Shown here one piece after another: positions 2,905 through 42,595 of a stretch of DNA of 43,682 nt. Within the stretch, counting starts at the first letter, position 1; every line of letters begins with the position of its first letter. Both the position numbers and the translations under genes were made by a program. The DNA lies in the IMG/VR virus record IMGVR_UViG_3300043419_000578, positions 1 to 43,682 of that record. One strand, written 5' to 3'. Below the pieces are notes generated by a model that had not been told where the DNA came from, searched no databases, and worked only from the letters and a program-made list of their open reading frames with translations. Source of the DNA: a virus.

Positions 2905-3621
2905 ATGGCAAATCAAATTGCAGGTAATGCTAAGAATATTCTAGTTGGTGCTTCACCACTATTTATTTCAAACTTAGACGTTACAACATCAGGATACGTC
3001 GAAAACTTTGCACCTGGAGAATCGGGATCAACAGCACCAGCGTTCTCAGCTCCAACAGCATCAGCAGACGGAAAGTCTTACACAGATACCTTGAACGAGG
3101 TAACTAGCACAACAACACCAGCATTCTATTACAGAAACGTTGGTTACACAAACAACGGTCTTCAGGTAACATACAACCCATCATACGGTTCAGTTACAGT
3201 GGATCAGCTTCTTGATACAGCAAAGCTTTTCAAGGAGTCAATGGAAGTTATGATCGCTACAGAAATGGCAGAAGGTACTCTAGAGAACGTTCTTACAGTA
3301 TTTGGTCAGAGCTCAAGCACACTCACAGAGGGAGCAACTACAGACAAGCTTGGTCTTGCTGGTGGTGCTCTTGGTGAGGCTCCAACAGAGCGTCAGCTTG
3401 TTGCAGTAGGTCAGGCTCCAACTTCTGGAGCAGGTGTATCAAAGGCAGAGCGTGTATACTATGCACGTCGTGTTCTTTCTGTACAACAGTCACAGTTCTC
3501 TTTGGCTCGTAACGCAGCATCAACATTCCCAGTAACATTCCGTTTGCTTCCAGACGGTTCAAAGGTCGGTCAGGAATATGGTTTCATTGTAGACCGTGTT
3601 CTAAACAAGACAGGCGCATAA
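2905..3621 (+). CDS. Major tail (tube) protein
   Basis: 238 residues. A consensus AGGAGG at 2891-2896 sits 8 bases before the ATG. Size, beta-rich and Thr/Ser/Ala-rich composition, and the position between tail terminator and tail chaperones identify the major tail tube subunit, which polymerises in rings around the tape measure protein. Arginine codons are almost all CGT (one AGA), unlike neighbouring genes where AGA dominates. This is a typical mark of very high expression. A strong intrinsic terminator follows 20 bases after the stop. Both features fit a protein needed in hundreds of copies per virion. Identification is by context rather than by a diagnostic motif. Confidence 0.75.
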   Translation: MANQIAGNAKNILVGASPLFISNLDVTTSGYVENFAPGESGSTAPAFSAPTASADGKSYTDTLNEVTSTTTPAFYYRNVGYTNNGLQVTYNPSYGSVTVDQLLDTAKLFKESMEVMIATEMAEGTLENVLTVFGQSSSTLTEGATTDKLGLAGGALGEAPTERQLVAVGQAPTSGAGVSKAERVYYARRVLSVQQSQFSLARNAASTFPVTFRLLPDGSKVGQEYGFIVDRVLNKTGA

Positions 3622-4396: not shown

Positions 4397-7300
4397 TTGG
4401 CAGATCAAAACATAGTTACCAACATAACTGCGACGGCTAATTTTAGTAGCCTAACAGCGCAGTTACAAGCGGTGACCTCTCAACTTCTAAAACTTCAAGC
4501 TACAACAATTGGTTTAAATAAGAATTTAACTAGCCAGGTTGGAGTCATGAATCGTCAGTTTGACGAAACCATGCGCTCCACTGGCCAGTTTTCTAGACAC
4601 TTCGTAACATTAACTTCAGACGTATCTAAGTTTGGTCAAAACCTAGATAGCGGAAGAATGAAGCTAGGCCAATATTTTCAAACCTGGCAGGGTCATACAA
4701 GAAAGACCAGCACACTAGTAAAAGAATTAGCTAAGCAGCAGGTAATGCTTGAGAATGCTGTGGTTCAACCACTTGGCAAAAATGCTCAAGGGTTAATGCA
4801 GTATAACGTAATGGTTCAATCTGGACTAGATGCAACAAAGAATAAGTCCGCATTACTAAGACAAGAACTATCTATCATGAACAAGGTGATGATGGATGGA
4901 TCAAATCAATTAATTAACTGGGGTAAGAATACTCAGTGGGCTGGTAGACAGCTTACAGTAGGACTTACAGTCCCATTAGCAGCATTTGGTATGGCTGCAG
5001 CAAAAGCATTTAGACAAGCAGACGAAGAGCTTGTCAGACTTACAAAGGTTTATGGCGGATTAACAGCAACATCATCTGAAGATTTATTAAGAGTAAGAAA
5101 AGATGTAGCAGCATTATCTAGAGAGTTGGCATCAGGTCTTGGTGCAAACTTTACAGAAACAATTGCATTGGCTGCAGATATTGCTGCAACTGGTAAAGAA
5201 GGCACAGAGCTTTTAGACTCTACTAGACAAACTACAAGACTTGCAATTCTTGGTGAAGTTGATAGACAAGAAGCAATGAAAGCAACCTTGTCTATTCAAA
5301 CGGCATTTGGACAAAGCACAGAGCAACTCGCTCAATCCATTGACTTTCTTAACGCTGTTGAAAACCAGACCTCAACAAGCCTTGCAGATTTAGTAGAAGC
5401 AATTCCTAAAGCTGGTCCAGTAGTAAAAGCTTTGGGCGGAGATGTTCAGGATCTTGCACTTTATTTAACTGCTATGCGTGAAGGTGGAATTAATGCTTCA
5501 GAAGGAGCAAACGCACTTAAGTCAGCATTAGCATCTATTATTAATCCTACCAAGGTTGCTAAAGAACAGTTCATGGGATTCGGTATTGATCTAGGTGGAA
5601 TCGTAGATAAAAATGCTGGCAACCTAACTGGAACAGTTATGGCACTTAAGGATTCATTAGATAGTCTAGACCCACTAAGTAGAGCGAGAGCAATCGAACA
5701 ATTGTTTGGTAAGTTTCAGTTTGCAAGAATCAATGCGTTGTTTGAAAACCTTGGAAAAGAAGGAAGCCAAACTCTACAAGTATTAGATTTGATGAAAGCA
5801 AGCACACAAGATTTAGCTAGTATATCTGAGCGAGAATTAAAAGCAATGACTGAGTCTGCTTCTGGTAAATACAAAAGAGCTTTGGAAGCAGTTAAGGCAG
5901 ACCTAGCAGTAATTGGCGAACAGTTCCTAAAAGTAGGAACATTTGTATTAAATGCTATTGACGGAATTGTTAAATTTATTGGAAACCTTCCTGGCCCAAT
6001 TAAAGCAGTATTAGGATTTATAGGAAGCTTAACAGCAATTGCTGGACCAATCATCATGTTAACTGGTGTGCTTGCCAACTTCTTTGGATATATTATCAAG
6101 GGCATATTTGCTCTTAAAAATATTGGTAAGGGTGGAACTGGATTTAAGTTATTAACACCAGAATTAATGGCAGCCTCAGCTGCTGCTGAAACTGTAGAGC
6201 AAGCATTTTATAGCGATACAAAAGCTGCCGCAACATTTTCTGACGCAGTCATGACATTAGCTGCCTCATTTGAAAAGCTAAGACAAAATGCAATGTCTGC
6301 AACAGTTGCTACTTCAAACAGCATGTCTACAGTAGGCGGTAATACTGTTATGCGAGGTGGAGGAAGAATTGTAGACAAAGAAAATCCTTTAGTAGGCAAA
6401 GCCTATTCAAGAGATATGTCTCACGTAATTCCAACTGGATCTAAAACCCCTCAGCAAAGAGCAGACGAAACAATATTCTCAACTGTTCCTGGTCCTAAGC
6501 CAGTAAACCTAAGACTTTCAAATTCAGCGCAAACATACATGAACGATGATCTGCCAAGAATTAATGGAGTAACTTCTGTAAATGGAGTTTCAAATGGTAT
6601 AGTTGCAGCAGAAGCTGCCAAGTGGCATTCCATGACTGCAGCTTTAGCCATGCAATCAAAGGCAGAAATAGCACAGCTTAAAGCCGAGGTTGCTGCTACT
6701 GGAACAGTTACAGCATCACTAACAGATTCATACCAAGCGCTATTGCCTCAAATGACAAAGATAACTTCTTTGGCGGCGGATGAAACGGCATTAATTGTTA
6801 AGCAGCTACAGGCTGGCAAGATCACAGTAGAAGCAGCAAGAGCAAAGATATTTGCATTAAATGCACAAGTAGAGGCAATGATGGTGCAAACTGCACAAGG
6901 AGTTGCAACAGCACAAGCTAGAAACATTAGCCTGGCCACAGTTCCTTTGACAACACAGCCAGTTGTAAGCGCAGCTGGTAAATCAAACATGAAAGAACTT
7001 TTCCATAAAACAGAAACTTCTAAACTTGTAGATTCAATTGCTCGTGGTCTGGGAGTCAGAACTTCTGGCGCTGGATATAGCATTCAAACAACAAAGCCTA
7101 GAAGACTTAATGCTGGTGGAAGAACTGGTGGAGTGTACGAGCCAGAAAAGCACGGAGCAGTTGTCCCAGGTGACACATCAATTAACTACGACAATACCCC
7201 AGCCAGAGTCCCACTTGGAGGGTTTGTATTAAATCAAGAAGCTTCTAGAAACAATCCAGAGCTAGTAGAACGTGCAAAGCAAAGCTATGGAATGAATGGC

Positions 7301-10300
7301 GGAGGCAAAATAGATGCTGTATTAACTCCAGGCGAAACAGTTGTAGACCCAAAAACATATTCTGAAAATCAAGCGGCGTATGATAAGGCAAATTCAACAA
7401 AGAGAAGAATTGAATTTAGAAGTATGGGCGGAGTCCTTGGCGGATTGGTAATTCCAAAGAAAAGAAATTATGGTAATAAGTTATTTGCAGATGAAGCGCT
7501 TTCTGTACAAAAATTAGAAGAAGCTTATAGGTATGTAGATAATCTCACTGGAGATAGCTATGAAGAATTAAGACGACCAGGAATTGTATTAAATAATGCT
7601 GATGCGTTATTTAGACATGTGCCTGGAATGACAATGCAACGTGCAGTTGCAGAAGCTAGAGCTATAGATGTGGTTGCTAGAAGATCACACCAGCTATTTG
7701 TTGCAAGCAACGGCGAAGCTGGAATGGATTATCACACAGCACATGCTAAATATTTAGAGGCTAAATATCCTCATATGATATTGCCGTCTGGATCAACTAA
7801 GCAACAAAAAAGAGCAGCTTCTGGCACTAAGGATGTACAAGCTAGAAAGCAAATGGCATTGATGGTTGATTCGGTTTTCCCAGGAGCATCTTCAGATGAG
7901 TGGGCACACAGAGCGCACTTTGTTCCAATAGAGCAATCAAGGGGTCATAAGGGATATTTTGGTGAAGCTGGACACGATAGATTTAATTTAATTGGTGAAG
8001 ATTTAAGAAAAACAGTTGGCGTAAATGATATATCTCCTGTATTTTCACAAGAAGCTAAGGCTCATGCTGATCACATAGCACAAGGATTAGGGTTTGAAGA
8101 TGCAGACGACTTCTTATTAAATAAAGAAAAAATTAAGGAGTTTATTAAAACTGGTAAATGGAAAGGTCCTGGACCAGTACCACTAGGGCTTGCAAAATAT
8201 CTGAGAGCCAACACAGTAGCATTAAAGGCTACAAATCCTAGAGTTGCCGCCGCAAACCCTAGAGTAGCTATAGCTCAAAAGATTGCTGGTGCACGTAGAA
8301 ACGCTGGCGGAATACTTGGCGGTTTAGTAAAATCTGGTAAGCGAAATTACGGCAACCTATTCCTTGGAATGCCTAGAGGAATAAAAGCAGTAGAAACACA
8401 AAGAAAAGCTAGACTTAATATGGAAGAGATTGATGCTGGGCTCAAAGCTAGCCGATTTGCAGCAATGCCTCCAACAGATTTTGGCAAGTTAATATCTCCA
8501 TCAACAGGAAGAAGCTTCCCTGTTCCAGGTATTGGCGGACTATATGAAAAGGCAGATGGCACAAGAGTATTTGTTAAGCCAGTAATGGATGAGACAGCAG
8601 CACTTGCAGAACAAAGAGCAACTATTATTGCTAGAGAAGCTCATGGACTAAATGCTCCTAAGCAAGAAATTAGAACAATGATTGATCCTACCGATCCAGC
8701 AGGCAGAAGAAAGCTATTGGTTTTAGAATCTCCTTACGATGAAGCATTTGCAAAAGCATCTGGAGAATTTACAAAACAAGATTATTTCAAGCAATTAGTT
8801 GCAGCTAACTTAAGAGGAGACAGAGATTTAAGCCCAGACAATCTTTATGGAAGCACATTAAATGACGTAGGTACTGCTGGTGTATTTAAGATGGCATCTG
8901 GCAAGAGAACGTATGAAGAAAATATGACTTCAATGAAAGACCAAGCAAATATTAATCTGCTAGGAGTAAAGGGCGGAGCAAGAAGATTCTTTGCTGAATC
9001 TACTCTAGCTATTCCAAAGGGAATGACTCCAAAGCAATATCATAAGGCAATGATCGATGAGATAGATGAGGTATTGCCAAGACTTGAAGAAACAGTAGCC
9101 AAATCTCTAGGTCAATTAAATGCACAAGAGTCTGCTGTATATGCAGCAATGATTCAGAGACTTAAAGATGGAAGAAAAGTAAACTGGGAAGAATTCCACG
9201 GAATTCATTCTGCAGTTAAAGTTGCAGCACCAAAGGCTCTTACTCCCGCCGCACTTAAAAAGCTAAAGGAAGAAGCAGAACTAAGAATTAGACAAAGAGG
9301 ACATGCAATATCTCTTTCAGACAATTCTTTTAAAACTCCTCTAAATGGATTTAATGGTGGAGGCTTAATTGGCAACGTCTTAAAGGGCGTAGCTATGAGA
9401 AAAATTGGTGCAGGCTTTGGACCAACAGGTGCACCTAAACCAAGCATGTATGAGTCAGCTCCATGGGGAGTTAATTCACTTTCAATTCAAATGGCAGAGA
9501 CCCTATTTGCTAATTCTGGATTAAGAAAAAATACACAAAAATTACTTTACGATAAGTTTGCTGCTGCACTAGCAAAAGAAAAGCCTTATGGCTATGTTAA
9601 GGGTAAAGACGGTTCACTTCAAAGAGCACTTGAGCCAGATTCACTAGATGCAGTTATTAGATTAGCCGCATCAGATCTATTCGGTGACAGGAATGTTATA
9701 AGACAGCTTTCTCCAATAGACAAAGACATACTTAGAAATAAATATTTAAATTGGGATTCTAAAAAGAATACACCAATGACTGCAGAGCTTCAGAAGAAGA
9801 TCTTCGGTATTGATGGCAAGAGAGAAATGGGTGGTCCAGTATCTCCAGGACAAAATTATGTTGTTGGAGAAAAGGGCCCAGAAATATTTAGTCCTTCACA
9901 GAGCGGAAAGATAATACCAGGATTTGCACTTGGTGGAATGATCAAGAGAAGCAAAGATTTTTATGGAGAAAAGATTACAGATGTAAGTCAAATTACATCT
10001 CAAGGGCAAGCAAAGAGACTTCTTAAATCAGGAGACCCTAGCCAAAGGGCTTTAGGTCAACTTTATTTAAATAACTTAGCAGCAGGAAAGGTTCCAGCAC
10101 CTGCACCTGCAAGAGTAATTACACCTGGGCCATTATCTGTAGCAAAAACAACTATAGTCGGAAACGGCGGAGTAAGAACAAATGCTTATGGCCTTCAAGG
10201 ATCTTTGCCGTATGCACCAGGACTAAAACTTCCGCTTAGACAATTTAACATGGCAATTGATTCCGCATTGCTATCCATAACTAATGGACTTAAAACATCT

Positions 10301-13204
10301 TCTACAAAATTAATAACAAGAGCTAAAATTGCAGCCTCAGATATATCAGCAAGCATAAATGCACTGGGAACTAAAATAAAAGACTCAGGATTTAGAACTG
10401 CTGGAATGATACAGAATCGTAAAAATACAATTGGAGAACAAAAAACAATAGCTGCTAGCGCCCCAGGACCAATTTTTAATCCAGCGTATATCGATAGAAG
10501 TGGTAAAGAGGTACCAGCATCTAGAGCAGATAAAGCAATTAGAAGATCCTTTATGGCAAATGCTCGTTATTCTACATCAGCAATGGCACATCCAGTTCAA
10601 TATATGAAAGCAAAGGGTATTGTAAACCCAGAACTTGGTGGCGGTGGAATTGGTATGATGGCTGGATCACTTGGTGGTATGGCAGCAGGATATGCTATTG
10701 GAGATAAACTTGGCGGACAAAATGGTGCAATGATGGGAAGTATGGTCGGCTCAATGGCTGGCCCATCACTGATAAAGGGCGCAGGGAAAATGGTTGCAAC
10801 ACGTGCAGCAGCAAGTGCCGCAACAGCAGGATTAGCTTCCGCAGGATTTGGAGCTACTGCAGCGGCAGCAGCTGGATTAGTCGCACCACTTGCAGCAGTA
10901 ACAGCTGCAGTTTATGTTGGATACAAAGCATGGAAGCATTATAAAGAAGGGCAAACCCTTAACATATCTACATTTGGTATGACTGCAGAAGCGGCTAAAA
11001 AAGCCAACCTAAGATTCACAGACTTTGGCGCAAAGATAAAAGATACCATCCAAGATTCAAAAGATATGGCAGCTGCAAACAAACTTGTTTACGAAAGCAT
11101 GAAGGATGGCGGTACCCCATTCCAAATGACTATTGCAGAATATAAGAAACTCAAGGTAGAAGTTAAAGAAACATTTGGGGAGCAAATTAAAGCGCTTGAT
11201 CGCCAGCCATCGAATAAAGTTCCAGATGCAGTACGCAGAATTAAAGAGCAGCTTATAGCTGCTGGAATGTCTGCTGAAGAAGCAACTAAAAAGGTTTATA
11301 CAATGCTTCAGCTTTCAAATAAGAAAGACCAATCAATTACTGCAACAATGGGTAACAAAGACTTCAAGAATATTACGGATGCACAAACAGCTGCAGTATC
11401 TTCTGTAACTAGCTTTGGTAAGGATACAAGAGACCAAGGAAATAAAGAAAAGGCAGCATCACTTAACACAGCCTTGATGGCAACTGAGACTGGAATTAAT
11501 GACCTTATTGCAAAGAGAGAACGCCTTGTAGCAAAAGATTTAAGCGGGAAGACAAAGTCATTGTCATACACTGAAGCTGAAAAGATTATGATAGATCAGC
11601 TAAATACTTCTAAGGAAGCTACTACTAAAATAACTCAGGGCACAGTAGATGAAATAGCTAAGACAAATCCAGAAGTTAAAAAGATGATTAATGGATCAGA
11701 TACTATTGTTAGCACATGGCAGAAGATTAGACTAGAGGCTCTAGGATTTAAGGGAGATCTTTCAAAGCTAAATGCTGAGCAGGCTGCAGTAGCAGCTAAC
11801 CTATTTAGCTCTGTTAGCGAGTCAGTACAAAAGACTAACAAAGAAGGTATCCTTAAGGGTCAATACGAAAACCTAGAAAAACTAAAAGGCCAAATTGCAT
11901 CTTATACGAAAGCACTCAAGGGACAAACTGCAGCGCAGCAAATATCAGACAGAGATAAACTGTCTGCACTTAATAAGCAGATTGAGGCAAATAATAAGTT
12001 AGCTGAAGCTAGAAAGAAAGCATTAACTGCTGCACAGGCAGACGCAGACCTTGGAAGAGAAATTGAAAAAACAAGAATGCAGATGCAGAATGCTGCAGCA
12101 AGCGGAGATACCCAGAAGGCACAAGAGCTTAGACTGGACTTAGAAACATTAACAACCCAGCAACAAACAGAGTCTCAAACTAAGGCAATTGATAAAGCAA
12201 ATGAAGCTGCAAATGCTCCACTTAAGGCAGCAATTGAAGCTATGGGCAATAAGCAGCAAAAGCTTGCAGACAGTGCAGCATTAGCTGGAGACAGCCTAGA
12301 TAAAATTAGAGATAAGTATGATAAGCAATTAGCTGCCATAGATAAGGTTAATAATTCAATGACCGCTCTTTATGCAAACGCTAAGCTTGCTGGAGTATCT
12401 ATTGAGGATTATGTTAAGAAGAATAAAGAAGCAGCATCTGCATTAGTCGCAGATTATGAAGCAGCAACTGGTAAAAAGATGGATCGCTACACAGTAGGAA
12501 AAGATGGCAAAAAGGTTCCAATAGATCCAACTACAAATGCACTTTCAGTACTTTCTAAGTCTGGAGCGCAATCAGGAATTGATGCATTAAAGATAACTGG
12601 TGGCAAGACACTTAAGGATGTTTATGATGCAATTAAGAATCCAAATGCCAAGGCTCCACTTAGAAAAGATATCGCAGTGTCTGGTGATTATTCAAAGAGC
12701 ATGGAAGAAAAAACATTTAATGGCGTAAAGACAAAGGTTTTAAATGCGGAAGCAAGAGAAGCAATTGGCAAAAGAGAAAACCTTCAGTTAAATGAAACAT
12801 TTATTTGGAATGGCCAAAGATATGGCAAGAGCCAGAAAAATGGAAACATAGTATTTATGGGTAAGGCTGCAACTGGAGTACAGGGCGGAATGCCAGGAAT
12901 GTATCTTGTTGGAGAAAATGGTCCAGAAATGGTTCACTTAAAGAACCGTGCTAATATTATGCCAAACGATGTAATGAAAACTTTGGCTGCCGCATCTCCT
13001 AGATATAATTTTAATAAAGCACAATACAATATGAAGGAAGGAACTGCTTCTGGGAATTCATATGTTGTGAACCAAAACATATATGCATCTGAAGGAATGG
13101 ATGTCGAAGCATTGTCAAATATGATTATCAAAAAGGCTGAAGTTGTTATTGGACAAAAGGCTAAGATTAATGTTAAAATGGTTGGACAGGGGAAAAACAT
13201 ATAA
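4397..13204 (+). CDS. Tail tape measure protein, giant, with inserted globular modules
   Basis: 2935 residues from TTG 4397, with AAGGAG at 4384-4389. It sets tail length and is ejected ahead of the DNA. In order: coiled-coil N-terminus (to ~150); TP901-type tape measure core (~170-430), including a GLTVPLAAFGMAA segment; a membrane-like hydrophobic segment (~530-578); Gly-rich linkers; globular modules at ~1011-1303 and ~1304-1640; another at ~1670-1850; a Gly/Ala-rich hydrophobic stretch (~2082-2185); long helices; and a C-terminal VGENGPEMV motif. A related VGEKGPEIF motif occurs near residue 1823. Linkers starting at Gly1011 and Gly1304 share the pattern GGxLGGLV followed by KRNYGN. The second module looks kinase-like (see findings). 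At about 1.5 angstrom per helical residue the upper bound on tail length is roughly 440 nm. Inserted folds would lower this. Confidence 0.95.
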   Translation: MADQNIVTNITATANFSSLTAQLQAVTSQLLKLQATTIGLNKNLTSQVGVMNRQFDETMRSTGQFSRHFVTLTSDVSKFGQNLDSGRMKLGQYFQTWQGHTRKTSTLVKELAKQQVMLENAVVQPLGKNAQGLMQYNVMVQSGLDATKNKSALLRQELSIMNKVMMDGSNQLINWGKNTQWAGRQLTVGLTVPLAAFGMAAAKAFRQADEELVRLTKVYGGLTATSSEDLLRVRKDVAALSRELASGLGANFTETIALAADIAATGKEGTELLDSTRQTTRLAILGEVDRQEAMKATLSIQTAFGQSTEQLAQSIDFLNAVENQTSTSLADLVEAIPKAGPVVKALGGDVQDLALYLTAMREGGINASEGANALKSALASIINPTKVAKEQFMGFGIDLGGIVDKNAGNLTGTVMALKDSLDSLDPLSRARAIEQLFGKFQFARINALFENLGKEGSQTLQVLDLMKASTQDLASISERELKAMTESASGKYKRALEAVKADLAVIGEQFLKVGTFVLNAIDGIVKFIGNLPGPIKAVLGFIGSLTAIAGPIIMLTGVLANFFGYIIKGIFALKNIGKGGTGFKLLTPELMAASAAAETVEQAFYSDTKAAATFSDAVMTLAASFEKLRQNAMSATVATSNSMSTVGGNTVMRGGGRIVDKENPLVGKAYSRDMSHVIPTGSKTPQQRADETIFSTVPGPKPVNLRLSNSAQTYMNDDLPRINGVTSVNGVSNGIVAAEAAKWHSMTAALAMQSKAEIAQLKAEVAATGTVTASLTDSYQALLPQMTKITSLAADETALIVKQLQAGKITVEAARAKIFALNAQVEAMMVQTAQGVATAQARNISLATVPLTTQPVVSAAGKSNMKELFHKTETSKLVDSIARGLGVRTSGAGYSIQTTKPRRLNAGGRTGGVYEPEKHGAVVPGDTSINYDNTPARVPLGGFVLNQEASRNNPELVERAKQSYGMNGGGKIDAVLTPGETVVDPKTYSENQAAYDKANSTKRRIEFRSMGGVLGGLVIPKKRNYGNKLFADEALSVQKLEEAYRYVDNLTGDSYEELRRPGIVLNNADALFRHVPGMTMQRAVAEARAIDVVARRSHQLFVASNGEAGMDYHTAHAKYLEAKYPHMILPSGSTKQQKRAASGTKDVQARKQMALMVDSVFPGASSDEWAHRAHFVPIEQSRGHKGYFGEAGHDRFNLIGEDLRKTVGVNDISPVFSQEAKAHADHIAQGLGFEDADDFLLNKEKIKEFIKTGKWKGPGPVPLGLAKYLRANTVALKATNPRVAAANPRVAIAQKIAGARRNAGGILGGLVKSGKRNYGNLFLGMPRGIKAVETQRKARLNMEEIDAGLKASRFAAMPPTDFGKLISPSTGRSFPVPGIGGLYEKADGTRVFVKPVMDETAALAEQRATIIAREAHGLNAPKQEIRTMIDPTDPAGRRKLLVLESPYDEAFAKASGEFTKQDYFKQLVAANLRGDRDLSPDNLYGSTLNDVGTAGVFKMASGKRTYEENMTSMKDQANINLLGVKGGARRFFAESTLAIPKGMTPKQYHKAMIDEIDEVLPRLEETVAKSLGQLNAQESAVYAAMIQRLKDGRKVNWEEFHGIHSAVKVAAPKALTPAALKKLKEEAELRIRQRGHAISLSDNSFKTPLNGFNGGGLIGNVLKGVAMRKIGAGFGPTGAPKPSMYESAPWGVNSLSIQMAETLFANSGLRKNTQKLLYDKFAAALAKEKPYGYVKGKDGSLQRALEPDSLDAVIRLAASDLFGDRNVIRQLSPIDKDILRNKYLNWDSKKNTPMTAELQKKIFGIDGKREMGGPVSPGQNYVVGEKGPEIFSPSQSGKIIPGFALGGMIKRSKDFYGEKITDVSQITSQGQAKRLLKSGDPSQRALGQLYLNNLAAGKVPAPAPARVITPGPLSVAKTTIVGNGGVRTNAYGLQGSLPYAPGLKLPLRQFNMAIDSALLSITNGLKTSSTKLITRAKIAASDISASINALGTKIKDSGFRTAGMIQNRKNTIGEQKTIAASAPGPIFNPAYIDRSGKEVPASRADKAIRRSFMANARYSTSAMAHPVQYMKAKGIVNPELGGGGIGMMAGSLGGMAAGYAIGDKLGGQNGAMMGSMVGSMAGPSLIKGAGKMVATRAAASAATAGLASAGFGATAAAAAGLVAPLAAVTAAVYVGYKAWKHYKEGQTLNISTFGMTAEAAKKANLRFTDFGAKIKDTIQDSKDMAAANKLVYESMKDGGTPFQMTIAEYKKLKVEVKETFGEQIKALDRQPSNKVPDAVRRIKEQLIAAGMSAEEATKKVYTMLQLSNKKDQSITATMGNKDFKNITDAQTAAVSSVTSFGKDTRDQGNKEKAASLNTALMATETGINDLIAKRERLVAKDLSGKTKSLSYTEAEKIMIDQLNTSKEATTKITQGTVDEIAKTNPEVKKMINGSDTIVSTWQKIRLEALGFKGDLSKLNAEQAAVAANLFSSVSESVQKTNKEGILKGQYENLEKLKGQIASYTKALKGQTAAQQISDRDKLSALNKQIEANNKLAEARKKALTAAQADADLGREIEKTRMQMQNAAASGDTQKAQELRLDLETLTTQQQTESQTKAIDKANEAANAPLKAAIEAMGNKQQKLADSAALAGDSLDKIRDKYDKQLAAIDKVNNSMTALYANAKLAGVSIEDYVKKNKEAASALVADYEAATGKKMDRYTVGKDGKKVPIDPTTNALSVLSKSGAQSGIDALKITGGKTLKDVYDAIKNPNAKAPLRKDIAVSGDYSKSMEEKTFNGVKTKVLNAEAREAIGKRENLQLNETFIWNGQRYGKSQKNGNIVFMGKAATGVQGGMPGMYLVGENGPEMVHLKNRANIMPNDVMKTLAAASPRYNFNKAQYNMKEGTASGNSYVVNQNIYASEGMDVEALSNMIIKKAEVVIGQKAKINVKMVGQGKNI

Positions 13205-31726: not shown

Positions 31727-31898
31727 GTTTATCAACAAGCCACAAGCGGTTAGTAAGAAAAACTTAGAAGCAATACATGGCGTAAAGCCATGCTCTAAAT
31801 GTGATTTAAATGCTGAAGAAGCTTTTTGGGATCCTGAATCAATGACTTTAGCATGGGAGTGTCCAGATGGGCACTCAAACGAAGTTAAGGTGGGATAA
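31710..31898 (+). CDS. Small zinc-ribbon protein
   Basis: 62 residues. The start lies inside recA in another frame, with GAGGAAATAA before it. CSKC (~residues 28-31) and a second pair made of WECPDGH (~49-55) form a likely Zn site of C-x2-C plus C-x3-H type. The N-terminal part is a charged helix (NEFINKPQAVSKKNLEAI). Several such mini-zinc proteins occur in this phage, always attached to operons for DNA metabolism. Function unknown. Confidence 0.6.
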   Translation: MPNLNEFINKPQAVSKKNLEAIHGVKPCSKCDLNAEEAFWDPESMTLAWECPDGHSNEVKVG

Positions 31899-31899
31899 A

Positions 31900-32745
31900 A
31901 TGAGCACAGACTTTAGCACTGTTAAAAAGATTGTTATAGCGCCACAAATTGTTGTATATAGAAATATATTTAAGCATAGTAAAGAAATTATTGATCTTAT
32001 GAAAAATGACAGGCCAATATCTTTCTTTACTAATTGGAACGCATGGTATGAGCAAGGCTTTAGAAAGGTATCTAACCCTATACGCCTAGATCAGATAGAT
32101 CCAAAAGACGACAAAGAACTAGCACTTGAAAAAGAGTATGTCCTAGAGGTACTTGATTGTATGAAGTTTATAAGGGAAGATTACCTAAATGAATTTAGAG
32201 AAGATAAAGGCATATGGCCATCTTTTATAGAAAACTGGGATGATCTATCTGACACGAATAAAAGATATTGGATTGATTATTTTAGGTATGACGTAGACAT
32301 GGCAGCCAAAGTTCAGCATAAAAACTTAATGATGGAGTATCATGTTGACGAGTTCCCGATACCAAAAGAAACAAAAAGAGATAGGCATGTTGCTACCGTT
32401 AACTTTTATTTGAATAATGAATACGAAGGTGGAGAGATATGCGTCTATGATTCTGTATCTAATAATACCTATATGTATAAGCCACATCCTGGAGATGCAG
32501 TAATAATGCCATCTACCGAACCGTTTTATCATGGTGTGAAGCCATTTAAAAATTCAGATAGATATTTTTTAAGAGCATTTATTGATTATGAGGTTCACCC
32601 AGACTTTGAGTGGAAAAATAAATATGCTTTAGACATCAACGAATCTTTGCTAAAAGATATTGCTACAGAAGAATCTTATATAGAAAAGGATCTTCAGATA
32701 ATTAAACTATCTATCCCAGCTAACATTATAGAAGTAAAAGGATAG
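31900..32745 (+). CDS. Fe(II)/2-oxoglutarate-dependent oxygenase, prolyl-4-hydroxylase-like
   Basis: 281 residues. ATG 31900 was chosen, since AAGGTGGG lies before it; an open extension to 31867 overlaps the previous gene. The jelly-roll metal triad is visible: His148 and Asp150 in YHVDEF, distal His211 in FYHGVK, and Arg221 ten residues later for 2-oxoglutarate. VNFYLNNEYEGGEICVYD and PHPGDAVIMPS are strands typical of P4H-type enzymes. It should hydroxylate a protein, nucleic acid or small molecule using O2 and 2-oxoglutarate. The substrate is not evident. It opens a cassette with a resolvase-like gene, a DUF6065-like gene and a second oxygenase. Confidence 0.85.
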   Translation: MSTDFSTVKKIVIAPQIVVYRNIFKHSKEIIDLMKNDRPISFFTNWNAWYEQGFRKVSNPIRLDQIDPKDDKELALEKEYVLEVLDCMKFIREDYLNEFREDKGIWPSFIENWDDLSDTNKRYWIDYFRYDVDMAAKVQHKNLMMEYHVDEFPIPKETKRDRHVATVNFYLNNEYEGGEICVYDSVSNNTYMYKPHPGDAVIMPSTEPFYHGVKPFKNSDRYFLRAFIDYEVHPDFEWKNKYALDINESLLKDIATEESYIEKDLQIIKLSIPANIIEVKG

Positions 32746-40994: not shown

Positions 40995-42439
40995 GTATAA
41001 TATTAGGAATAAATGAAACTTCGCATGATGCTTCAGTATCTTTAATTAAAGATGGGGAGATATTGTTTGCTGGTCATTCAGAAAGATATAGTAAGCAAAA
41101 AAATGACTGGTATATTAACGATAGCCTGATTCAAGACGCATTGTCTTACGGTAGACCAGACCACATAGCCTACTACGAGAAACCGCTTCTAAAGGCCTCT
41201 AGGCTATTTCTAAGGGGTGGTTTTGGAGACTGGAAGCCCAAGTTCGACTTGCCAGGAGTTCCAAGGAAATCATTTAGCCATCACTACTCACATGCAGCAG
41301 CTGGATATTACACCAGCCAATTTAATAATGCGGCTATAGTAGTTCTTGATGCTATAGGAGAATACAATACATCTACTATTTGGGTAGGAGATGGGGAAAA
41401 CATTAGTCTTAAATATAAGCAAAATTATCCAGTAAGCTTTGGCTTATTCTATTCAGCATTTACTAAGCTTATAGGGCTAATGCCAAACCAAGAAGAATAT
41501 ATTATGATGGGAATGGCTGCCTACGGTGATTGGACAAGATACTACAAGGATGTAGATTCTTACTTCCCCTCATATAGCCATCAAAAATATAATTTTCATA
41601 AAGGAATAAATGACTGGGGCCCCATATTGTCAGATCAAGATAGGTTTGACATTGCTGCTGCAGTTCAAGTTGTTTACGAACAAAGACTAAATGATTTTAT
41701 GCGTATGGCTAAATCAATTACTGGCAAAGACAATCTGGTTTTTATGGGTGGATGTGCATTAAACTCATCAGCAAACACATTGCTTTGGAAGATATTTAAG
41801 GACATATGGATTATGCCAAACCCAGGAGATGCTGGTTCATCATTAGGAGCGGCAGCCGCTCTTTATGGTAAACATCTAGAGTGGAAGACACCGTATTTGG
41901 GCTACGACATGGGTGGCGAATATCCAATCAATAAAATACTTGCAGAGCTAAAGAACAATAAAATAGCGGCGGTGGCAACTGGAAGAGCAGAATATGGTCC
42001 TAGAGCTCTAGGTAACAGGAGTATATTGGCTGATCCTAGAGATCCAAACATTAAAGACAAAGTTAATATGATTAAGCAGAGAGAGCAATTCAGGCCTTTT
42101 GCACCAGTAGTTTTAGAAGAGTTTGCAAGTGAATGGTTTGACATGGACTTTGCCTCTCCTTATATGCAATATACTGTTAAGTGTAAACAGCCAGACAAGA
42201 TACCTTCAGTTGTTCATAAAGATGGAACTTCTAGAGTACAAACAGTAAATAGAGATCAACATCCAGGGCTGCACATGCTTTTGAGAAAGTGGTATTGGGA
42301 TACTGGATGTCCAGTACTTTTAAATACTAGTTTAAATATTAAAGGTCAGCCTTTATTAAATGATGAGCAAGATGCTATTGACTGGCAGGCGCACTACGGG
42401 TATAATATAATAACAGGCGCCAGTAGCTTAGTTGGTTAA
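40991..42439 (+). CDS. NodU/TobZ-type carbamoyltransferase
   Basis: 482 residues. The N-terminal Kae1-like domain begins ILGINETSHDASVSLI. It has a metal site of His97-His98-x2-His101 with Asp120 (FSHHYSH, VVLDAIG), and MGGCALNSSAN. The C-terminal carbamoyltransferase domain carries AEYGPRALGNRSILADPR and FRPFAPVVLEE, hallmarks of the family. The reaction moves a carbamoyl group from carbamoyl phosphate, through carbamoyl-AMP, to a hydroxyl on a sugar or modified base. It is shorter than NodU (about 560). Known phage relatives carbamoylate hydroxymethylcytosine in DNA, but no hydroxymethylase is visible here, so a glycan target is also possible. Its last 23 bases overlap a tRNA gene. Confidence 0.9.
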   Translation: MSIILGINETSHDASVSLIKDGEILFAGHSERYSKQKNDWYINDSLIQDALSYGRPDHIAYYEKPLLKASRLFLRGGFGDWKPKFDLPGVPRKSFSHHYSHAAAGYYTSQFNNAAIVVLDAIGEYNTSTIWVGDGENISLKYKQNYPVSFGLFYSAFTKLIGLMPNQEEYIMMGMAAYGDWTRYYKDVDSYFPSYSHQKYNFHKGINDWGPILSDQDRFDIAAAVQVVYEQRLNDFMRMAKSITGKDNLVFMGGCALNSSANTLLWKIFKDIWIMPNPGDAGSSLGAAAALYGKHLEWKTPYLGYDMGGEYPINKILAELKNNKIAAVATGRAEYGPRALGNRSILADPRDPNIKDKVNMIKQREQFRPFAPVVLEEFASEWFDMDFASPYMQYTVKCKQPDKIPSVVHKDGTSRVQTVNRDQHPGLHMLLRKWYWDTGCPVLLNTSLNIKGQPLLNDEQDAIDWQAHYGYNIITGASSLVG

Positions 42440-42490
42440 AGCCCCGAACTCATAATTCGGTAATCGTAGGTTCGAGTCCTACCTGCCGCA
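42417..42490 (+). tRNA. tRNA with CAT anticodon (Met elongator or Ile2)
   Basis: Full cloverleaf of 74 bases: acceptor GCGCCAG/CTGCCGC with one C:C mismatch in the middle, D stem GCTT/AAGC, anticodon stem CCGAA/TTCGG with loop CTCATAA, T stem GTAGG/CCTAC with loop TTCGAGT, discriminator A. The G1:C72 pair rules out an initiator tRNA. CAT could mean elongator Met or, if lysidine-modified, Ile for ATA codons, which are abundant in this AT-rich phage. CCA is not encoded. The first 23 bases also encode the C-terminus and stop codon of the carbamoyltransferase. Confidence 0.92.
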
Positions 42491-42494
42491 CTGA

Positions 42495-42566
42495 ACCTTT
42501 GTAGCTCAGCGGAAGAGCAACAGACTTCTAATCTGTAGGTCGCTGGTTCGATCCCAGCCAGGGGTA
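42495..42566 (+). tRNA. tRNA-Arg (TCT anticodon)
   Basis: Full cloverleaf of 72 bases: acceptor ACCTTTG/CAGGGGT with two G:T pairs, D stem GCTC/GAGC, anticodon stem ACAGA/TCTGT with loop CTTCTAA, T stem GCTGG/CCAGC with loop TTCGATC, discriminator A. It begins four bases after the first tRNA, and CCA is not encoded. It reads AGA, the main arginine codon in most phage genes of this window. Confidence 0.95.
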
Positions 42567-42595
42567 CAATTAATTAAATTATAGAGAGAGAGCAA

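Follow-up and report, generated by a model that had tools for sequence, protein, structure and literature searches.

Injected phage effectors are mostly known as head-packaged proteins, and the tape measure protein (TMP) is known for setting the tail length, forming channels, and hydrolysing the wall. Previous studies described kinases and ADP-ribosyltransferases (ARTs) in injected polyvalent proteins or in MuF/portal proteins (PMC5512222, PMC9503650), and the enzymes injected by T4-like phages help infection (PMC9503650). The Ser/Thr-type kinases that Iyer et al. 2017 described in polyvalent proteins have lost the C-terminal subdomain and contain an insert between the His and the Asp (PMC5512222). 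The TMP of phage TP901-1 is believed to be expelled and to build a channel, and a topology prediction assigns the stretch separating its two hydrophobic regions to the cytoplasm (PMC5099701). The T6SS effector Tde1 needs a glycine zipper for delivery into the target cell, and such zippers are also present in TMPs (PMC10240207). In mycobacteriophage Douge, the TMP is inferred to be a trimer in the narrow tail channel, where the connector lumens measure 21-31 Å (PMC13033339). Our literature search, whose coverage is incomplete, found no kinase, HipA, or ART within a TMP.

The domain described here is a kinase-like module in the TMP of an uncultured phage. Like the kinases of Iyer et al. 2017, which reside in a multi-domain, virion-borne, and probably injected protein with exchangeable modules (PMC5512222), it is part of a modular virion protein; unlike them, it keeps an all-helical C-lobe in its model, has a compact loop, and sits in a TMP. 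Membership in that group is not supported, since the C-lobe is retained and the catalytic loop has no insert. As with T4 Alt and other head-packaged ARTs (PMC9503650), a protein-modifying enzyme would be carried in the particle, and ARTs alternate here with the kinase, but Alt is borne in the head whereas the kinase is fused into the tail ruler. Muralytic TMPs with CHAP, lysozyme, or peptidase domains likewise have an enzyme domain inserted in the TMP. The polyvalent-effector strategy known from head proteins is here shifted to the tail ruler.

The tape measure protein of the window

The window, by which we mean the whole stretch of 43,682 nucleotides analysed (IMG/VR record IMGVR_UViG_3300043419_000578), encodes a 2935-aa protein near its beginning:

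4397..13204, plus strand: TMP gene, 2935 aa, TTG start (Pfam and PHROGs matches)
5123..5710, plus strand: PhageMin_Tail core of the TMP, aa 243-438 (Pfam PF10145)

The PhageMin_Tail domain was found with E = 1.4e-26, and the PHROGs family "tail length tape measure protein" matched the 2935-aa ORF with E = 1.3e-119. The tested neighbours of the gene are tail genes or unknowns according to PHROGs, so that domain, profiles, and gene neighbourhood all identify a TMP. The similarity of the TMP to Streptomyces and Gordonia phages suggests an actinobacterial host for the virus; the GC content of the window is 38%.

A kinase-like domain in the TMP

8450..9208, plus strand: kinase-like domain, aa 1352-1604 (AlphaFold2, Foldseek)

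We modelled this domain with AlphaFold2 from a 44-sequence alignment, the representatives of which are 57-91% identical to the window. The model (pLDDT 89.4, pTM 0.90) is two-lobed and kinase-like. It begins with three strands, the third bearing Lys1394, followed by the helix of Glu1405, two strands, and a further helix, and it continues with the catalytic loop, the DxG motif, and a helical C-lobe of about 100 residues. In a Foldseek comparison with the PDB, the HipA-like kinase CtkA ranked first (E = 8.9e-4, probability 0.99, TM 0.41), and eukaryotic-type kinases, including GSK3 and JNK, came below it; HipA was found at rank 15 (3dnv, probability 0.93) and also as 3dnt, and RioK1 at rank 40. 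Among the viral models of BFVD, the nine best matches are phage proteins of the polyvalent/ART kind (E ≤ 2.3e-4, probability 1.00, TM up to 0.56), several of which are annotated as ADP-ribosyltransferase or portal. The structural matches are modest overall, with identities of 10-18% and TM-scores of 0.35-0.56 (at most 0.41 in the PDB), the low TM-scores perhaps reflecting different lobe orientations. A 493-aa protein of HSTV-2, chosen by its length as the probable counterpart of a BFVD match, was set aside, since its sequence looked unrelated and gave a winged-helix match in Pfam. Searches of the kinase domain and its alignments against Pfam, PHROGs, and PDB sequences gave no match and no covering family.

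The earlier note on this DNA had proposed a kinase-like fold of the HipA/PI3-4-kinase type within the TMP and had named in advance the two lobes as the point on which the idea would stand; the predicted structure has them, and CtkA and HipA are among its Foldseek matches. The ORF and the coordinates given there are correct (residues 1304-1637 are 8306-9306), and so are the motifs quoted, GGLYEKADG being located at 1380, VFVKP at 1391, GDRDLSPDN at 1474, and VGTAGVF at 1491. The insert exists as described, but its bounds had been drawn too wide, the domain itself covering about 1352-1604.

Active site and selection

The putative active site consists of the following elements:

8576..8578, plus strand: Lys1394, putative ATP-binding lysine in the β strand VFVKP (kept in 105 of 105)
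8609..8611, plus strand: Glu1405, α-C glutamate on the helix after the Lys strand, expected partner of Lys1394 (103 of 105)
8819..8842, plus strand: catalytic loop D1475-R-D1477-L-S-P-D-N1482 (D1475, D1477, and N1482 in 105 of 105)
8864..8872, plus strand: Asp1490-Val-Gly1492, predicted DFG-like metal-binding motif (Asp and Gly both in 105 of 105)

Conservation was counted over 105 distinct kinase ORFs, the loci themselves being redundant metagenomic contigs. The residue set of the kinase superfamily is present, K1394, D1477, N1482, and D1490 in all 105 and E1405 in 103, the other two having Gln. Lys1394, Asp1475, and Asp1477, whose loss had been named beforehand as evidence against a kinase, are thus kept throughout. 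Asp1490, the DFG-like metal ligand in N-D-V-G, is an active-site element that had been missed at that stage; its motif (LND-VG) is matched in the phage kinases by a conserved DxGG in the alignment. Leu1478 is also invariant, and position 1479 is mostly Ser, Gly, Gln, or Ala, with His in 6 of the 105 as in the D-x-H-x-x-N loop of HipA. Comparison with HipA (D309-x-H-x-x-N314, D332) points to Asp1477 as the base and to Asn1482 and Asp1490 as metal ligands, and Asp1475 replaces the Asn found two residues ahead of the base in the HipA consensus NTDAHAKN. In the hhalign alignments, Lys1394 lies opposite the YVK lysine of the phage kinases and opposite Lys181 of HipA, the latter alignment not being significant by itself. 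The 44-representative alignment (57-91% identity to the window) has 54 invariant columns. Between near relatives, dN/dS is 0.08-0.18, which indicates that the protein sequence is maintained by purifying selection.

Relation to phage polyvalent kinases and HipA

GodonK gp67 of a Gordonia phage (NC_048176), which adjoins the portal gene, is among the best viral fold matches, and IMG/VR contains at least 257 proteins of its family. The segments SGSNPGGVMQEPSGDKWYVKTP, NEIAGHKMYALAG, WLANWDAPANDN, and RVDTGGSLDFRARGG follow one another in gp67 in the same order as in the TMP domain. The hhalign score of the TMP kinase against the gp67 family was 37.0 (P = 7.7e-5), compared with a maximum of 23.2 in 100 column shuffles and 14.1 for the reversed profile; the gp67 family in turn scored 40.7 against HipA, where the shuffles reached at most 21.2. 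The direct profile link between the TMP kinase and HipA was discarded, its score of 19 lying within the shuffles, and the two-step link alone stands. The homology to HipA is therefore indirect, bridged by the gp67 family.

The TMP kinase and the gp67 type share the order GG, (Y/F)VK, NE/AE helix, N, and DxGG strand, as well as an association with ART domains; relatives of GodonK gp67 in Pseudomonas, Aeromonas, and Yersinia phages are annotated ADP-ribosyltransferase. However, gp67 is on the head side, beside the portal, and the window domain is in a tail TMP. The window domain also has a longer C-terminal lobe, its D-x-D-L-x-x-x-N loop is compact, and the DAWLANWD invariant in the gp67 type is absent from the TMP kinase, where QLVAxxLRxDxDL is found instead. 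With HipA and CtkA the domain shares, in the same order, the Lys, the Asp base five residues ahead of the Asn, the Asn, and the Asp ligand. In contrast to HipA, the catalytic-loop His is mostly missing in the TMP kinases. Among the TMP neighbours examined in the window, no HipB-like HTH partner was noticed. HipA_C (PF07804) had no match in the Pfam scans or the window search, nor did the N-terminal domain Couple_hipA (PF13657) match the TMP in Pfam. We assign the domain to the superfamily of kinase-like folds, with the phage polyvalent kinases as its closest group, and do not class it as a HipA toxin.

GodonK gp67 (L173:26522-30961), an unannotated protein of 1479 aa, has ART-like motifs around aa 1120-1200 and, towards its N-terminus, a kinase domain (aa ~105-290); it is covered by neither a Pfam nor a PHROGs family. 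In the haloarchaeal virus HHTV-1, gp13 (L163:9436-12738), annotated as hypothetical and located by a MuF-like gene, contains the kinase motif GNRDIHGGNF...PVDNG.

Distribution of the domain and replacement in the cargo slot

Relatives of the kinase domain occur on at least 315 IMG/VR contigs, of which direct search found 13 and profile-guided scans 241 and then 315. Close relatives were found in IMG/VR only: tblastn of the domain against 50,697 phage records gave no match beyond chance (one at E = 2), and no relative was present in GTDB bacterial or archaeal genome contigs. The domain is exclusive to TMPs: 100 of the 105 kinase ORFs include the N-terminal TMP core, and the five that do not are interrupted by contig or ORF ends.

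The kinase lies in an exchangeable slot with glycine-rich borders:

7475..9349, plus strand: exchangeable cargo slot, aa 1027-1651, module 1 and kinase module (replaced in L255)
7475..8296, plus strand: module 1, aa 1027-1300 (17 ORFs of the set have it, among them L003, L005, and L007)
8297..8356, plus strand: Gly-rich linker RNAGGILGGLVKSGKRNYGN ahead of the kinase module, aa 1301-1320 (from the sequence)
9356..9394, plus strand: Gly-rich linker NGGGLIGNVLKG on the downstream side, aa 1654-1665 (L255, L263, and L281 become similar again)

A near-repeat of the upstream linker, MGGVLGGLVIPKKRNYGN, precedes module 1 at aa 1010-1027; module 1 itself (aa 1027-1300) had no match in Pfam. The TMP of L255 is 85% and 69% identical to that of the window on either side of the slot, and aa 1027-1651 of the window are replaced there by an unrelated stretch of 241 aa, with the borders in Gly-rich linkers. 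We also drew a sample of 55 complete TMPs, selected by the N-terminal core alone at an identity of at least 68%, in which 28 have the kinase and 27 lack it. The median TMP length is 2927 aa with the kinase and 2216 aa with neither kinase nor ART. The presence or absence among close relatives and the replacement in L255 confirm the self-contained insert seen in the earlier note, and the flanking glycine-rich linkers reported there are in place (AGGILGG at 1303-1309, NGGG at 1654-1657). No long direct DNA repeats worth noting were seen at the module borders.

The L255 stretch, aa 1020-1262, is a further cargo module that takes the place of module 1 and kinase, and relatives of it stand upstream of the kinase in L015, L026, L032, L039, L046, and L048.

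An ART-fold cassette, detected by phmmer in the relatives, fills the slot in 52 distinct TMP reading frames, none of which has the kinase; kinase and ART occur together in 0 of 157 distinct ORFs (105 kinase, 52 ART). The cassette has the motifs (L/Y)xRG, RR(S/A)S(W/F), and (N/S)ExE, and Arg121, Ser156, Glu204, and Glu206 (R-S-ExE) are invariant in 29 of its sequences. Its AlphaFold2 model has a pLDDT of 74 and a pTM of 0.56, and Foldseek matched it in the PDB to bacterial C3 and binary-toxin ADP-ribosyltransferases (38 matches with E ≤ 1e-3, probability 1.00). The median distance of the cargo start from the TMP core is nearly the same for the kinase (711 aa) and the ART (719 aa). On the TMP-core tree, a fast tree that makes the count approximate, the cargo state (kinase/ART/other) changes at least 17 times, compared with 51.5 when shuffled. 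Several modular, exchangeable enzymatic domains occur in this virion protein, as in polyvalent effectors.

The ART cassette corresponds to L306 aa 1331-1565 (L306:13682-14401) and is also found in L265, L283, L316, L317, and L337-L383. A second kinase-like domain, with HGDMHPGN...FDWG, is located at aa ~2950-3250 of the L304 TMP (L304:18539-19591), with relatives in L305 and L298. Pfam matched it to ABC1 with E = 2.7e-4, which is below the curated cut-off, and to APH with 1.7e-3; the TMPs of L304, L305, and L298 carry the first kinase too. Some relatives' TMPs have CHAP, LysM, or OmpA domains; in L331, aa 2091-2250 are an apparent CHAP cell-wall amidase in a TMP with neither kinase nor ART, and L045 has a weak relative of it.

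Putative membrane segments and possible delivery

The cargo of the window TMP is flanked by hydrophobic and glycine-zipper segments:

6005..6106, plus strand: first hydrophobic segment, possibly membrane-inserting, aa 537-570 (Kyte-Doolittle)
10637..10771, plus strand: glycine-zipper region, aa 2081-2125 (zipper motif scan)
10844..10900, plus strand: second hydrophobic segment, aa 2150-2168 (Kyte-Doolittle)

A hydrophobic segment lies upstream of the cargo in 90 of 90 kinase TMPs (Kyte-Doolittle) and downstream in 57 of 90 at the threshold used. Half of the zipper motifs of the window TMP (12 of 24) fall within aa 2001-2200, and across the cargo TMPs a dense zipper is downstream of the cargo in 82 of 133 and upstream in 8. 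Kinases need ATP and ARTs NAD, both cytosolic, so that a role in the wall or the periplasm is unlikely, unlike for the muralytic TMP domains, which target the cell wall. The use of the same slot by relatives for other enzymes suggests a second role for the tail ruler, the delivery of enzymes into the infected cell, and the delivery idea is strengthened by the ART cassettes that alternate with the kinase in one slot of these predicted proteins. In a narrow channel with a presumably trimeric TMP, there may be no room for a folded domain of 30 kDa on each copy, and the domain probably travels unfolded. Few copies per virion would also limit the reach of the kinase, and its target is probably scarce, local, or the protein itself.

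Proposed function and alternative explanations

From fold model and sequence, the domain is probably an enzymatically competent kinase module of the HipA/CtkA superfamily, an interchangeable, tail-delivered cargo in the TMP slot. The fold, the conservation, and the exchange are computed results, and from them we infer kinase activity, delivery, and target along the following lines. The TMP copies occupying the tail tube would leave before the DNA, and segments 537-570 and 2081-2168 would enter the cytoplasmic membrane, so that the intervening cargo loop (aa ~900-1900) would face the cytoplasm. The kinase would fold there, bind Mg-ATP via Lys1394/Glu1405/Asn1482/Asp1490, and phosphorylate a molecule of the host with Asp1477 as the base; the likeliest substrate would be a protein that is scarce or close to the membrane. 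This phosphorylation might disarm or reprogram the host within the first minutes of infection.

Alternatively, the kinase may work in assembly or in the tail, phosphorylating itself or tail proteins in TMP folding, tail length, or release, and leave the host alone. It is built into a structural protein, the TMP length differs by cargo (medians of 2927 with the kinase and 2216 without kinase or ART), and self-modification would fit the low copy number; however, about half of the close relatives assemble without a kinase, and unrelated ART, second-kinase, or unknown modules are found in the same protein. An assembly function would not be expected of something exchangeable with an ART, and we regard this role as unlikely. 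Slightly less likely still is a pseudo-enzyme that retains the kinase fold for binding a nucleotide, the membrane, or a host protein without phosphotransfer. The change of the catalytic-loop His to Ser, Gly, or Gln in most members (His in 6) would agree with it, but the Lys, the Asp base, the Asn, and the Asp of DxG are invariant in 105 ORFs and the Glu is kept in 103.

The cassette swapping is reminiscent of polymorphic toxins, HipA is a toxin, and ART folds are common among toxins, so the module might be a tail-borne toxin or exclusion factor against competing phages or non-productive hosts and not an aid to infection. An incidental look beside the TMP in the window revealed no immunity-gene partner, though, and the injected enzymes of T4-like phages aid infection (PMC9503650); we consider this reading improbable. 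Chance resemblance of motifs within a TMP linker region would account for the lack of any Pfam, PHROGs, or PDB sequence match, but it is very hard to credit and was rejected in view of the high-confidence fold, the invariant active site, and a profile link exceeding all shuffles. Occurrence on at least 315 contigs, invariant key residues, and strong purifying selection likewise make the domain more than chance.

Returning to the tail-delivered kinase, we see an even chance that it reflects something more general: the TMP of a large uncultured-phage group may be a dedicated effector-delivery chassis. Recombination at the glycine-rich linkers would load a slot between two membrane-inserting segments with enzymes that exclude one another (HipA/CtkA-type kinase, C3-like ART, and others), so that the ruler would pass enzymes into the host cytoplasm before the DNA. 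If this is true, the swappable kinase/ART slot would be a siphophage protein-delivery route at time zero of infection, and the passage of folded enzymes through a narrow tube and the final location of the TMP middle would become testable.

Other genes of the window

The window also encodes a 2-oxoglutarate/Fe(II) oxygenase in the replication region (31867-32745; PF13640, E = 3.7e-12), and genes for tRNA-Met (CAT) and tRNA-Arg (TCT) are located at 42417-42567.
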